Source: an uncultured Litoreibacter sp. (GTDB lineage: Bacteria; Pseudomonadota; Alphaproteobacteria; Rhodobacterales; Rhodobacteraceae). From it: a stretch of DNA of 64,000 nucleotides. Position numbers and translations under genes: made by a program. The notes under the pieces are model-generated. The model searched no databases. It was not told the DNA's origin and saw only the letters and a list, made by a program, of their open reading frames with translations. The stretch is from contig NZ_CANMXB010000001.1 in assembly GCF_947501785.1 (NCBI RefSeq), positions 434,001-498,000 on the forward strand. The letters are read 5' to 3'. Below, piece by piece: positions 32,535 through 49,885 of the stretch; position 1 is the first letter of the stretch, and the number at the start of each line of letters is the position of its first letter.

Positions 32535-33695
32535 ATGTGGAAGTCCATTGCCTCTAACTTTCTGACGATCTTCATTCTGGCCCTGTTCGCCGTTGGCGGA
32601 CTTATTGGCTGGGGTCAGTCGCAGTACAAAGCGGAAGGGCCTCTGCAACAGGCCGCGTTCTTTGAGGTGCCGCGCGGGGCATCTTTGCGGGCTGTGTCCG
32701 AGCGGCTGGAAGCGCAGGGCGCGATTTCCAACGCCTCGATCTTCCGCATCGGGGCTGAATATTCGGACAAGGCGCAGCAGTTGAAATTCGGCAATTACGA
32801 GATCCCTGCAGGCGCCTCAATGGCCGATATCATTGATATTGTGACCGCGGGCGGGCCGTCCACGTTCCGGTTCGTGGCCACCTACCTGATCCGCAATACG
32901 GGCGGCGAGTTGCGGTTCCGTGAGCGCACGCCCGGGACGGGGGAAGAGGTCGTGCTGGCCGAATTCAAGGCCGGAGAGCCTTTGCCTGAGGCCTATTCCG
33001 AAGCCGTGGCGGCTGAAGTGCCGATCGTCTACCGCGTGTCCGTTGCGGAAGGGTTGACCAGCTGGCAGATCGTCGAAGGGCTGAAAGGCGCGGATTTCCT
33101 GGACGGAGAGGTGGCGGACGTTCCGGCTGAGGGATCATTGGCCCCTGACACCTACGAGGTGAGCCGTGGGGCCGAGCGGGGGACCATTTTGGACCGGATG
33201 GCGCAGGCACAGGTGCGTATCCTGGATCAGGCCTGGGAGAACCGCGCACCGGATCTGCCGCTTGAATCCAAGGAGGAGGCGCTGATCCTTGCGTCCATCG
33301 TTGAGAAGGAAACCGGTGTTCCCGAGGAGCGGCGTCAGGTGGCGAGCGTGTTCACCAACCGCCTGAACCAAGGCATGAAGCTGCAGACAGACCCGACGGT
33401 GATCTACGGGATCACCTTGGGGCAAGGCAACGGCCTGGGGCGCGGCATTCGGCAGTCAGAGTTGAACCGTCGCACAGATTACAACACTTATATCATCCCG
33501 GCCTTGCCGCCGACGCCGATTGCCAACCCGGGCAAACTTGCGATTGAAGCGGCGTTGAACCCGGACAGCACGCCGTACATCTTCTTCGTGGCTGATGGCA
33601 CTGGCGGGCATGCATTTGCGGAAAATCTGGCCGATCATAACCGCAACGTTGCGGAATGGCGCAAGATTGAGGCCGAACGCAACGCGAATAACTAG
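32535..33695 (+). CDS. mltG: Endolytic murein transglycosylase (YceG-like)
   Basis: Inner-membrane enzyme that cuts nascent peptidoglycan and limits glycan strand length. The 386 residues have one N-terminal anchor (FLTIFILALFAVGGLIGW), a LysM-like region (FFEVPRGASLRAVSERL) and the YceG catalytic domain: ILASIVEKETGVPEER with the catalytic Glu near residue 256, then LQTDPTVIYG and YNTYIIPALPPTPIANPG. The position immediately before the GTA cluster is the usual one in Rhodobacterales. Confidence 0.94.
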   Translation: MWKSIASNFLTIFILALFAVGGLIGWGQSQYKAEGPLQQAAFFEVPRGASLRAVSERLEAQGAISNASIFRIGAEYSDKAQQLKFGNYEIPAGASMADIIDIVTAGGPSTFRFVATYLIRNTGGELRFRERTPGTGEEVVLAEFKAGEPLPEAYSEAVAAEVPIVYRVSVAEGLTSWQIVEGLKGADFLDGEVADVPAEGSLAPDTYEVSRGAERGTILDRMAQAQVRILDQAWENRAPDLPLESKEEALILASIVEKETGVPEERRQVASVFTNRLNQGMKLQTDPTVIYGITLGQGNGLGRGIRQSELNRRTDYNTYIIPALPPTPIANPGKLAIEAALNPDSTPYIFFVADGTGGHAFAENLADHNRNVAEWRKIEAERNANN

Positions 33696-33785: not shown

Positions 33786-33800
33786 TTAACACATTGTTAA
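33786..33800. promoter_or_regulatory. CtrA-like full site
   Basis: TTAACACATTGTTAA: TTAA, seven bases, TTAA, the spacing of a full CtrA box, and also a palindrome of TTAACA/TGTTAA. It lies about 36 bases before the candidate -35. CtrA is required for GTA production in Rhodobacter capsulatus, so the site is plausible but unproven. Confidence 0.5.
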
Positions 33801-33835: not shown

Positions 33836-33864
33836 TTGACTCTTCGAACGGTCTCTGGCATACC
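33836..33864 (+). promoter_or_regulatory. Candidate GTA promoter
   Basis: TTGACT, 17 bases, CATACC. The -35 matches five of six bases of the consensus, while the -10 matches only three, as expected for a promoter that needs an activator. Confidence 0.35.
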
Positions 33865-33885
33865 TTTGGACAAGATGGAGAAATA

Positions 33886-33914
33886 GGGTCAGCAGCAATG
33901 CTCTGGCCCTTTTT
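33886..33914 (+). terminator. First terminator in the GTA leader
   Basis: GGGTCAG, C bulge, AGC, loop AAT, GCT, CTGGCCC, then TTTTT. Ten pairs with one bulge. It lies 191 bases after mltG. Confidence 0.85.
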
Positions 33915-33929
33915 ATATGGAAATTTGCG

Positions 33930-33966
33930 AGCGGCACGGACCTCAAGGTTCCGGGCCGCTTTTTTG
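33930..33966 (+). terminator. Second terminator in the GTA leader
   Basis: AGCGGC, A, CGGA, loop CCTCAAGGT, TCCG, G, GCCGCT, then TTTTTG. Ten pairs around one mismatch. It ends 46 bases before the g1 start codon. Confidence 0.85.
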
Positions 33967-34012
33967 TTTCCCGAGCTCACGAACAGATGCAGCGGCGTGG
34001 TTTGGAGGCGCG

Positions 34013-34456
34013 ATGGATGAGACACCGAAACAGGTGATCCTATTGGGGAGCCCTGAAACCGGAGATACGACACAGAAAAAGCCCGAATATGTCGGGGCAT
34101 TGGAACCGGAACTTGCCCGTGAAAGCGACGCGGCCAAGGCCCATATCGACGACACGCTACAGGTCTTCGTGCGGGTTCTGAACCGGTTGCGACGCACTTT
34201 GGAAGACTATTCGGTCAAGGTCGAAAACGACGACCTTCAAGCGGCCGGACTCAACTCGGAAATGCGGCAGATTGGGCCGTTACTGTCGGCCACGATACAG
34301 CAGGAGAAAAAGGTCAATGACACGATTCAACAGCGCGTTGGCGAGGCAGGAAAATACGCATTCGACCTTGAAAGCGCCCGATCTGAAATTCGGGGCCGCC
34401 TCGCTCGCCTGCGCAAGCAGCACGGAGCAGAACGAGTTTCTGACGGGACTGAGTGA
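34013..34456 (+). CDS. GTA small terminase subunit (g1)
   Basis: A 147-residue helical protein corresponding to RcGTA g1, reported to work as the small terminase. It has an acidic start (MDETPKQVILLGSPETG), a long coiled-coil stretch at about 45-110 (VLNRLRRTLEDYSVKVEND) and a basic C-terminal helix (SEIRGRLARLRKQHG). ATG 34013 follows TTTGGAGG; the frame is open upstream through the leader terminators, which argues against a longer protein. It overlaps the proposed g2 start by 140 bases. Confidence 0.82.
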   Translation: MDETPKQVILLGSPETGDTTQKKPEYVGALEPELARESDAAKAHIDDTLQVFVRVLNRLRRTLEDYSVKVENDDLQAAGLNSEMRQIGPLLSATIQQEKKVNDTIQQRVGEAGKYAFDLESARSEIRGRLARLRKQHGAERVSDGTE

Positions 34457-35729
34457 CCATGCATTGGCGGCCCTGCCATACGTGTTTGAATTCTGGGCGT
34501 TGGAGCATCAATTGCCGCCCGAGGGGGACTGGCGCAGCTGGGTTGTGATGGGCGGACGTGGCGCGGGCAAAACCCGCGCAGGCGCCGAATGGCTGCGCGC
34601 CCAGGTTGAAGGTGCGACGCCTTTGGACCCGGGCGTGGCGTCACGTGCGGCGTTGGTTGGCGAGACCTTTGATCAAGTCCGCGACGTGATGATTTTTGGC
34701 GCAAGCGGCATAATGGCCTGCACCCCGCCGGACCGCCGCCCGAAATGGGAAGCAACCCGCCGCCGTCTGGTTTGGCCCAACGGCGCCGTGGCTGAATGCC
34801 ATTCAGCCTCATCACCCGAAGAGATGCGCGGCCCGCAATTTGATGTGGCCTGGCTGGACGAGCTTGCAAAATGGGGCAAGGGCGACGAGGCGTGGGACAT
34901 GCTGCAATTTGGCCTGCGGCTTGGGGCCCATCCCCGGCAGGTGGTGACGACCACGCCCAAGAACGTCGATGTGCTCAAGGGCATATTGGAACAGTCATCG
35001 ACCGTTGTGACGTCCGCCCCGACAGAGGCGAACGCGGCTTATTTGGCGGAGAATTTCCTGAAAGAGATCAGGGCAAGATACGGCGGCACCCGGCAGGGCC
35101 GCCAGGAATTGGACGGCGAACTGGTCGAGGATTTGGACGGCGCCTTGTGGACCATGGACATTCTGGACGGCGCGCGCCGCAAAACGCTGCCGGAGTTCGA
35201 CCGCGTGGTTGTGGCCGTTGACCCGGTGGTATCGAGGGGCGGCGGGGCGGATGCCTGCGGCATCGTTGTTGCCGGCGCAGTCTTGAAGGGCGAGCGGCAA
35301 GACTGGCACGCCGTGGTGTTGGAGGATGCAACCGTCCACGGGGCATCGCCCCTTGGCTGGGCGACTGCGGCCGTCGCTGCTGCGGAAAGGCACGGCGCAG
35401 ACCGCATCGTGGCGGAAGTGAACCAGGGCGGCGCGCTTGTCGAAGAGGTGTTGCGGCAAGTGGACCCGTTGGCCCCCTACAAGAGCGTGCACGCGAGTTC
35501 CTCCAAGGCGGTCCGCGCAGAACCGATCGCGGCGCTCTATGAGCAAGGGCGGGTCAGCCATTATGGAGACCTGACCGCGCTTGAGGACCAGATGAGCCAG
35601 ATGACGGTGACCGGCTTCAAGGGCCGTGGCAGCCCAGACCGGGTGGACGCGCTGGTTTGGGCCATTCGGGAATTGCTGCTTGGTGGCGAGCAGAGCGCTC
35701 ACCCGCGCATACGGACGGTGGGACATTAG
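34317..35729 (+). CDS. GTA large terminase subunit (g2)
   Basis: ATP-driven DNA packaging motor and headful nuclease, about 470 residues as drawn. Walker A is GGRGAGKTRAG, Walker B VAWLDELAKWG, then a TTTPKN coupling motif. The RNase-H-like nuclease starts at VVAVDPVVSRGGGADACG and ends with DRVDALVWAI. Conserved sequence begins around ALPYVFEFWALEHQLPPEG, 45 residues in, so the true start may be later than ATG 34317. That ATG was chosen because AGGAG lies 10 bases upstream and no later in-frame ATG precedes the conserved core. Confidence 0.9.
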   Translation: MTRFNSALARQENTHSTLKAPDLKFGAASLACASSTEQNEFLTGLSDHALAALPYVFEFWALEHQLPPEGDWRSWVVMGGRGAGKTRAGAEWLRAQVEGATPLDPGVASRAALVGETFDQVRDVMIFGASGIMACTPPDRRPKWEATRRRLVWPNGAVAECHSASSPEEMRGPQFDVAWLDELAKWGKGDEAWDMLQFGLRLGAHPRQVVTTTPKNVDVLKGILEQSSTVVTSAPTEANAAYLAENFLKEIRARYGGTRQGRQELDGELVEDLDGALWTMDILDGARRKTLPEFDRVVVAVDPVVSRGGGADACGIVVAGAVLKGERQDWHAVVLEDATVHGASPLGWATAAVAAAERHGADRIVAEVNQGGALVEEVLRQVDPLAPYKSVHASSSKAVRAEPIAALYEQGRVSHYGDLTALEDQMSQMTVTGFKGRGSPDRVDALVWAIRELLLGGEQSAHPRIRTVGH

Positions 35730-35835
35730 CGCGCCCCTAGGGGCATGTAGACCTAATTGAAATGTTGAGAGGCGGGAGCGAAGGCTGCCGCCTTTTCTTT
35801 TGGCAGGCCGTGGGCGGCCAAACAGGAGCGACGAA

Positions 35836-36999
35836 ATGGTGTTTGACTTTTTGAAGCGAGGCGGCGCGCAGGCGGCGGAGGTGAAGGCCTCAGCCACGGG
35901 GCCGGTGATTGCCTGGCACGGCTCTGGCCGGGTGGCGTGGAGCCCGCGCGATACGGTGTCCCTGACCAAGGCGGGGTTCTCGGGCAACCCGGTGGGGTTC
36001 CGCGCGGTGAAGATGGTGGCGGAAGCTGCCGCAGCCCTGCCGCTTGTCTTGCAGGACGAGGGGCAACGGTTTGACACGCACCCGGTGCTGGCGCTGTTTT
36101 CCCGGCCCAATGCGGCGCAGGGGCGGGCGGAGATGTTTGAGGCCTTGTATGGCCAACTGCTGCTGAGCGGGAACGGCTATGTGGAGGCCGTGGGCGACGG
36201 CGTGCCAAGCGAGCTGCATGTGCTGCGCTCGGACCGCATGGCGTTGGTGCCCGGCTCGGACGGGTGGCCAGTGGCGTATGACTACGCCGTGGGCGGCAAG
36301 AAGCATCGCTTTTCGATGCTGGATGGTGCCCCGATTTGCCATGTGCGCAGCTTTCATCCGCAGGACGACCATTACGGGTTTTCCCCCTTGCAGGCGGCTG
36401 CGAGCGCGATTGACGTGCACAACGCGGCCTCGCGCTGGTCGAAGGCGCTGTTGGACAATGCCGCAAGACCATCTGGGGCGATTGTGTACAAGGGCTCCGA
36501 TGGGGCGGGGGCGATGACCAACGACCAATATGAGCGATTGCAAAACGAGATGGAGGCGCATCATCAGGGCGCGCGAAATGCGGGCCGTCCGATGTTGCTG
36601 GAAGGCGGATTGGATTGGAAACCGATGGGGTTTTCGCCTTCAGACATGGAGTTCCAGAAGACCAAGGAGGCCGCAGCGCGGGAGATCGCGCAGGCCTTCG
36701 GGGTGCCGCCGATGCTGTTGGGCATTCCGGGTGACGCCACCTACGCCAATTACGCGGAGGCCAACCGGGCGTTTTATCGCCTGACGGTGTTGCCGCTGGC
36801 GGGCAAGGTGCTGGGGGCGCTGTCGCATTGGGTGTCGGAGCTGTCTGGCGAGCCGGTGCAATTGGCGCCGGACCTGGACCAGATCGCCGCTTTGAGCGTT
36901 GAGCGGGACGCGCAATGGGCAAGGGTGGCCGCGGCGCCGTTCCTGAGTGACGGAGAGAAACGGGTGCTTTTGGGCCTGCCGCGTGAGGTGAGCCCATGA
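35836..36999 (+). CDS. GTA portal protein (g3, HK97 type)
   Basis: Dodecameric ring through which DNA enters the head. The 387 residues match HK97-family portals: SGNPVGFRAVKMVAEAAAAL near residue 50, LLLSGNGYVEAVG near 110, FHPQDDHYGFSPLQAAASAI near 170, and the closing QAFGVPPMLLGIPGDATYAN near 290. ATG 35836 follows AGGAG. The stop overlaps g3.5 (ATGA). Confidence 0.93.
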   Translation: MVFDFLKRGGAQAAEVKASATGPVIAWHGSGRVAWSPRDTVSLTKAGFSGNPVGFRAVKMVAEAAAALPLVLQDEGQRFDTHPVLALFSRPNAAQGRAEMFEALYGQLLLSGNGYVEAVGDGVPSELHVLRSDRMALVPGSDGWPVAYDYAVGGKKHRFSMLDGAPICHVRSFHPQDDHYGFSPLQAAASAIDVHNAASRWSKALLDNAARPSGAIVYKGSDGAGAMTNDQYERLQNEMEAHHQGARNAGRPMLLEGGLDWKPMGFSPSDMEFQKTKEAAAREIAQAFGVPPMLLGIPGDATYANYAEANRAFYRLTVLPLAGKVLGALSHWVSELSGEPVQLAPDLDQIAALSVERDAQWARVAAAPFLSDGEKRVLLGLPREVSP

Positions 37000-49850: not shown

Positions 49851-49885
49851 AAACGGCCGCTGCAGGATGCAGCGGCCGTTTTTTG
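49851..49885 (+). terminator. Intrinsic terminator between cysE and pdhC
   Basis: AACGGCCGCTGCA, loop GGA, TGCAGCGGCCGTT, then TTTTTG. Thirteen perfect pairs. Mainly for cysE; the minus strand has a weaker T-rich end (TTTATCATTT) and may also serve pdhC. Confidence 0.92.

Follow-up and report, generated by a model that had tools for sequence, protein, structure and literature searches.

The DNA analysed, a stretch of 64,000 nucleotides (hereafter, the window), contains on its forward strand the beginning of a GTA cluster together with the gene 5′ of its leader, mltG (YceG; 32535–33695; Pfam YceG, E 3.6e-77). The stretch between mltG and g1 consists, in order, of a TTAA-N7-TTAA box, a promoter, a start region, hairpin 1, hairpin 2 and 47 bases. 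GTA g1 (34013–34456, ATG at 34013) was named from its position and its similarity to the g1 of relatives; it has no Pfam match, and the literature describes it as the small terminase in R. capsulatus. It is followed on the same strand by g2, encoding the large terminase TerL (34458–35729; Pfam Terminase_6N/6C), by a terminator-like hairpin with T's (35769–35799) at the same place as terGTA of Caulobacter, and by g3, encoding the portal (35812–36999; Pfam Phage_portal, E 7e-88). The TTAA-N7-TTAA box (33786–33800) was read from the alignment, similar sequence is found in many leaders of the genus, and it resembles a CtrA site. According to the accessible part of PMC6363796, CtrA does not bind the R. 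capsulatus GTA promoter.

The promoter is sigma70-like and reads TTGACT-17-CATACC (33836–33864). Its −35 element, TTGACT (33836–33841), was read from the alignment and retains TTGAC in 19/19 leaders of the genus, and the promoter pattern TTGACNNNNCGNACGNTC has a single occurrence in the whole genome. A packaged scan left this promoter unlisted and gave a different pair instead; the 47 bases that separate hairpin 2 from g1 showed no promoter, either in that scan or in our own reading. The −10 element is CATACC (33859–33864), the family consensus being near TATAGG. The 17-nt spacer (33842–33858) contains CGAACGGTC at 33845–33853. G11 and C14, which fall in the spacer, are nearly invariant in the family alignment (61 rows), and a form of GCGAACGGTC is present in clade A of the genus and absent from most of clade B. 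The spacer is thus partly conserved, and its letters differ from those of the Caulobacter ZBE; it is a candidate site for the C-terminal (GafZ-type) part of GafA, its position matching that of the ZBE as given in the accessible text of PMC11150451. By eye, leaders of the genus, for example L096 and L100, have a further, inverted copy of the spacer motif (CTGCGAACGGTC type) some 50 bp 5′ of the −35 element; mostly this upstream inverted copy alone is retained in clade B, and an inverted repeat lies round the −10 element in several clade B leaders. The predicted start site, placed by spacing, and the conserved initial transcribed sequence CAAGATGGA occupy 33871–33879. The family consensus of this region is CAnGCTGGA, with several columns invariant or nearly so, although within the genus many leaders of clade B have C in place of its T; that it holds a sigma-dependent promoter-proximal pause element is a guess.

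Hairpin 1 with its T tract occupies 33885–33914 (stem-loop 33885–33910, T's 33910–33914), and hairpin 2 occupies 33929–33965 (stem-loop 33929–33961, T's 33960–33965). Each is a GC-rich hairpin directly before a U tract, the form of an intrinsic terminator, and the pair lies some 15 bases apart exactly where it had been described. Folded alone, hairpin 1 reached −16.5 kcal/mol (z −2.97; 4/200 shuffles as good) and hairpin 2 −20.7 kcal/mol (z −2.68; 3/200), and the predicted 102-nt leader reached −43.7 kcal/mol (z −4.55; 0/200). Both were detected by a terminator finder in which RNAfold judges each hairpin preceding a T tract, and both were missed by a packaged terminator scan. Hairpin 2 ranked 8th and hairpin 1 36th among the 50 terminator-like sites on both strands of the 64 kb, and the covariance model of the leader matched the window at 33836–33970 with 49.7 bits. 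Elsewhere in the window, a strong two-way terminator (49851–49881), whose GC stem resembles the one in hairpin 2, separates a cysE-like gene from a convergent dihydrolipoamide acyltransferase-like gene (names given by eye).

The genus sample comprised 21 genomes; g2 was found in 19, and all 19 leaders were used. Hairpin 2 was present 3′ of the promoter in 19/19. Hairpin 1 passed the finder in 6/19 leaders (the window, L093, L094, L095, L097 and L106), and an inserted stretch with hairpin 1 or its remains was seen in eight genomes (the window, L091–L095, L097 and L106); hairpin 1 failed the finder in L091 and L092, the nearest relatives of the window in the tree. In L093, L094 and L106, the one full-length match of the covariance model was too short for hairpin 2 and hence used hairpin 1, and a second, partial match fell on hairpin 2. 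The two modules aligned in register in L094, L097 and L106 (0/500 shuffles as good) and more weakly in L093 (7/500) and L095 (11/500); this comparison counted these five loci, the window, L091 and L092 being excluded for overlap of the compared stretches. Given the in-register alignment and the model matches, hairpin 1 looks like a lineage-specific duplicate of the conserved module in part of the genus. The leader model matched 20/21 genus genomes, the exception being 79% complete. Conservation in other genomes, which the first-pass annotation had proposed as a check for both hairpins, extended across the family for hairpin 2 and was confined to part of the genus for hairpin 1.

The family-wide comparison used 80 loci from named genomes, from which L002–L004 were dropped because they lay on the same contigs as genus genomes; the remaining 77 include three from other orders or families (L077, L080 and L081) and, with the 19 genus loci, gave 96 loci. 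A regular expression recognised the promoter with its start region in 77/96. A terminator followed the promoter in 71/77 of these, compared with 3/77 on the reverse strand, a mean of 6.4 and a maximum of 11 of 77 in 20 shuffles, and 35/1404 random places; the zone searched was 80 nt (110 nt in eight loci) starting 40 nt after the −35 element. Four of the six misses kept the promoter and had a weak, short-tailed or broken hairpin (L026, L043, L064 and L073); in L052 the expression misplaced the promoter, and the hairpins of L097 were found by the terminator finder.

Covariation was assessed on homologues of hairpin 2. The 84 loci with a hairpin pick were reduced to 68 by removing 8 in which the pick was wrong and another 8 that contain the inserted stretch, to 64 by a redundancy filter, and to 61 by dropping L052, L057 and L074, which had no clean −35 element. 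RNAalifold gave a single hairpin with no competing helix in these 61 leaders. All 11 of the 11 named stem pairs had changes on both sides, and the covariation score was 0.433, as against 0.203 ± 0.012 when shuffled (0/500) and 0.045–0.196 when slid. Across the 11 named pairs 94.8% of cells pair, a figure biased upward since the rows were chosen for having a hairpin; a better gauge is change on both sides of a pair at aligned positions, and this indicates that the structure of hairpin 2 has been kept by selection. The covariance model matched 282/394 family genomes (252/347 good ones) and, by genus, 281/393 of those sampled in the family; 4 of the 282 matching genomes had it twice. On the strength of sequence comparison, the hairpins exist, are conserved and stand where they could gate the cluster: the conserved promoter stands 5′ of the conserved terminators, and transcripts from 33836 must pass them, as had been claimed.

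The module is closely linked to GTA genes. At E 1e-80, g2 was found in 326/394 family genomes. Among the matches listed (150 for the model and 149 places for g2), 88 genomes were common to both, and 87 of these had the module upstream of g2 on the same strand at a distance of 378–469 nt (median 395); the 88th had module and g2 on two separate contigs. Ten of 20 listed genomes without g2 at E 1e-80 had a model match; five of these ten (G074, G087, G099, G148 and G155) were inspected together with G284, and the start of TerL stood behind the element in 6/6. As g2 is present in 15 of 20 listed family genomes without a model match, a fair part of the GTA carriers either lack the module or have one that escaped detection; some of the 15 may be misses of the model. 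An independent test came from viral contigs, which were fetched with a pattern that holds promoter and start-region letters and no terminator. The pattern alone retrieved 39 contigs, with g2 downstream in 39/39 and a terminator in 38/39 (36/37 distinct), the exception being L190. In the class sample, the model matched 1/304 non-family genomes (G451), partially and at an unrelated intergenic terminator, presumably that between recA and alaS as read by eye. A separate case in the same genus is L246 (G006:C49:12500-24500), where the leader promoter and terminator (75.6 bits) lie behind mltG and are soon followed by a gene like those at the end of the cluster. Queries g1–g6 had no match there, g2 was not found in the G006 genome and the DUF6456 gene lies elsewhere in it; the locus reads as a large GTA deletion that spared the leader.

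The 19/96 loci without a recognised promoter were of several kinds. L006 and L067 were cut by contig ends; L010 and L107 have the module though the regular expression missed it; L057 and L074 gave weak model matches (26.7 and 17.7 bits); and L077, L080 and L081, from other orders or families, were not recognised by the expression. GTA genes without a module match were found in L060, L072 and eight Roseovarius-titled loci (L012, L013, L016, L017, L020, L035, L039 and L063); the module is carried by six other Roseovarius-titled loci (L010, L014, L021, L036, L046 and L079), and the eight clusters without it may use another control.

Outside the family, g2 was found in 71 genomes of the class, and 27 fetched loci together with L077, L080 and L081 gave 30 for examination. 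A strict layout test (TTGAC, spacer, −10 and terminator within 50 nt) was passed by 3/30 (L080, L237 and L242) and failed by 27/30; the reverse strand gave 0/30 and shuffles a mean of 0.15 and a maximum of 1, and the same test on family loci gave 65/93 forward and 0/93 reverse. By eye, L231, L233, L244 and L232 look similar to the module, and L231 and L233 share GTGACACGCTGA with the start region of the family (GTGACATGCTGG). These loci are suggestive only of a module-like layout beyond the family. Searches directed at R. capsulatus itself were blank: part of a primer taken from the accessible text of PMC6854486 had 0 matches in the viral contigs, and a capsid search at a needlessly strict E of 1e-220 found nothing in the 394 genomes.

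A second terminator-like hairpin (35769–35794, or to 35799 with its T's) lies within the operon, between TerL and portal. It folded with a z of −3.34 (0/200 shuffles as good) and was present in 13/16 genus loci with intact g2 and in 35/93 loci overall, compared with 9/93 on the reverse strand. In Caulobacter, the proven terGTA is downstream of gtaT, the large terminase gene, according to the accessible part of PMC11150451. With terminators predicted after the promoter and after the first genes, expression of the operon would need a polymerase that passes them.

Deletions in TerL were observed alongside. In seven genomes, TerL is joined in frame, with an identical junction, to the GTA_TIM part of an Rcc01698-like tail protein: L106, L107 and L108 (G018, G016 and G002, same genus) and L169, L170, L172 and L173 (G099, G148, G087 and G284). 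The junction lies in the ..FDAAW(V/A)DE motif of TerL, at about residue 136; no portal or capsid match was found in the 7–8 kb fetched for L169, L170, L172 and L173, and the leader promoter and terminator are kept in 7/7. Inteins were ruled out as the cause of the split TerL genes, which are deletion fusions instead. In a tree of the TerL N-terminal part (few columns), the junction needs 7 changes, at least 4 of them forced by well-supported branches, which may reflect either repeated identical deletions or a deletion allele spreading by flank recombination. TerL is broken in other ways in L171 and L174 (G155 and G074), where the leader is intact; in L174 an early part of TerL is apparently fused to a later one, and L171 runs into a stop.

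The genome of the window (G000) contains one DUF6456 match (E 7.4e-61), in a 422-codon open frame with an N-terminal HTH, which is GafA-like. The search was positive in Caulobacter vibrioides as a control, and DUF6456 was found in 20/21 genus genomes, the exception being 57% complete; G012, of the same genus and 82% complete, has two DUF6456 matches over the cut-off. With E values up to 1, a search of solved structures gave no sequence relative of GafA. The two ends of R. capsulatus GafA correspond to Caulobacter GafY and GafZ, and GafZ lets polymerase through terGTA and rrnB T1, as described in the accessible part of PMC11150451, where Tran and Le (2024) raise the possibility that an antitermination activity of R. 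capsulatus GafA has so far gone unrecognised. In R. capsulatus, the C-terminal part of GafA is reported to bind a fragment 76–125 bp upstream of g1 that holds the −10, the −35 and the start site (accessible texts of PMC9638019 and PMC6363796), and GafA is described as acting through RNAP omega (PMC9638019). The main texts of these two papers have zero words beginning 'terminat', and searches of the open-access PMC literature turned up no account of the terminator in this leader. In the phage collection, the 103-kb record MW462191.1, named Bacteriophage sp., encodes a TerL like that of GTAs (51%) as well as a protein resembling GafZ (35%, covering 45% of the query).

A Q-like promoter–terminator gate opened by GafA-dependent antitermination is, in our analysis, the best mechanism and probably the right one; antitermination by GafA is favoured because of its homology with Caulobacter GafZ and because of the layout. 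The leader would be the late promoter of the GTA, equipped with an intrinsic terminator of its own close to the start. RNA polymerase would start near 33871 and, if unmodified, would stop in vivo either some 43 nt on, at hairpin 1, or some 95 nt on, at hairpin 2, thereby yielding a short leader RNA. GafA, as the dedicated GTA activator, would bind the promoter spacer through its GafZ-like C-terminal part and be loaded onto polymerase at initiation, making it terminator-resistant; polymerase modified by GafA would read through the leader hairpins and the TerL–portal terminator. Hairpin 2 would be the ancestral gate, and hairpin 1 a later copy tightening it in part of the genus. Counterpoints to this gate are the GTA loci that have no module match or a weak or broken terminator, the TerL–portal hairpin being present in only 35/93 loci overall, the absence of the spacer motif from most of clade B, and the description of GafA as acting through RNAP omega.

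The alternative that survives best, although we regard it as rather unlikely, is a leaky insulator, in which basal firing and read-through are damped by the terminators, polymerases get past them in a fixed proportion, and GafA only raises initiation. The reported action of GafA via RNAP omega (accessible text of PMC9638019) and the GTA loci that have no terminator would agree with it. However, most of the GTA mRNA should be lost at a strong covarying terminator that usually begins some 20 nt downstream of the predicted start, a second terminator lies inside the operon, and the homologue GafZ is an antiterminator in the account of PMC11150451, as far as accessible.

That the hairpins merely end the fabF–mltG transcript, with the GTA promoter downstream of them, was the alternative offered by the first-pass annotation, and it now appears very improbable. 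The gene mltG is indeed the upstream neighbour, on the same strand, in the window and in many relatives, but the module was found in 24 loci without mltG just upstream (among them L052, with its misplaced promoter). The upstream genes in these 24 loci were taken as the longest open frames, and many are on the same strand as the GTA; four, however, are divergent and send no transcript into the module, namely PepT (pepT) in L044 and L047, an aminotransferase in L078 and an SH3-domain protein in L058. These leaders contradict the alternative for the family, and a terminator of mltG was rejected. In the window, moreover, the hairpins lie 189 and 233 nt past mltG and are tied to the promoter, and no conserved promoter was seen downstream of them in the genus alignment.

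An independent small RNA gene ending at hairpin 2, with the GTA behind it by accident, is held to be just as improbable. It would account for the predicted RNA of 50–95 nt with its own promoter and terminator, and G006, which retains the module after loss of GTA genes, is compatible with it; a by-product regulatory RNA is possible. The absence of an Rfam match at the leader also fits, an Rfam family there having been rejected with a tRNA as the sole match in the window; a tandem repeat was likewise rejected, none having been found. Against such a gene, the module adjoins g2 in 87/88 genomes (among the matches listed) and in 39/39 viral contigs, and the conserved part consists of promoter and terminator, with little room for another function. 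RNA-based attenuation through a leader peptide, a riboswitch or an alternative antiterminator fold is the least credible of all and was rejected: some leaders do have ATGCTGGACGAG.. right after the predicted start, but the ATG is unconserved (among the 49 best-scoring leaders, about half have CAA there), the leader reading frames end at differing places by eye, the usual 20 nt or so alone before the hairpin is too little for an aptamer, and RNAalifold gave no competing helix.

The attenuation or antitermination raised by the first-pass annotation is accordingly retained in part: strict attenuation, by alternative folds or a leader peptide, is unsupported, and factor-dependent antitermination by GafA fits better, given the homology with GafZ (PMC11150451, accessible part). 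Beyond the GafA-dependent gate, a wider and more tentative reading, to which we give slightly less than even credence, sees in the GTA leader a late-gene switch of phage origin that has been domesticated. Expression would be decided mainly at the terminator by GafA as a processive antiterminator, the TerL–portal terminator would be a second gate, and GafA would be a fused activator-antiterminator; the ancestral promoter-plus-proximal-terminator cassette would survive in the majority of the Rhodobacteraceae genera sampled and also, its letters changed, in some GTAs from other families of Alphaproteobacteria. GTA producers lyse, and expression must therefore be tight. Antitermination has been shown for the Caulobacter GTA, whereas for R. 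capsulatus GafA the Caulobacter authors go no further than to suggest it. A conserved, covarying terminator fixed after the GTA promoter provides a concrete target for this suggestion, offers a reason why GafA retains a GafZ-like domain, and connects the control of GTA with the late switch that its phage ancestor would be expected to have had. The promoter–terminator module may also serve as a short signature for locating GTA promoters.

Among known systems, attenuators of amino-acid operons and riboswitches place a premature terminator between the start site and the first gene. The leader described here differs from them in that no alternative fold, aptamer or conserved leader peptide was found. 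In lambda-type Q systems (pR'-tR'), and also with AlpA, a factor site in the promoter is followed by an initial transcribed region, a proximal terminator and a long late operon. The GTA leader is similar, with a promoter-proximal terminator 3′ of the presumed factor-loading promoter, in the position that it has in the Q layout. GafZ itself reportedly resembles neither Q nor AlpA in sequence or structure (PMC11150451, accessible part). The RcGTA promoter (Fogg 2019; Sherlock and Fogg 2022) is alike in that the probe bound by GafA probably lies at the equivalent place; these accounts, as far as accessible, treat binding and initiation and no leader terminator. Compared with Caulobacter GafYZ/terGTA (PMC11150451, accessible part), GafA here is a single fusion protein, the letters of the binding site differ, and the first terminator or terminators are in the leader, where RNA is predicted to end some 43 and 95 nt from the start, whereas terGTA is downstream of gtaT. 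The two systems have in common a main GTA promoter, a GafZ homologue, a candidate element between −35 and −10, and a terminator or terminator-like hairpin between TerL and portal, at the place of terGTA.
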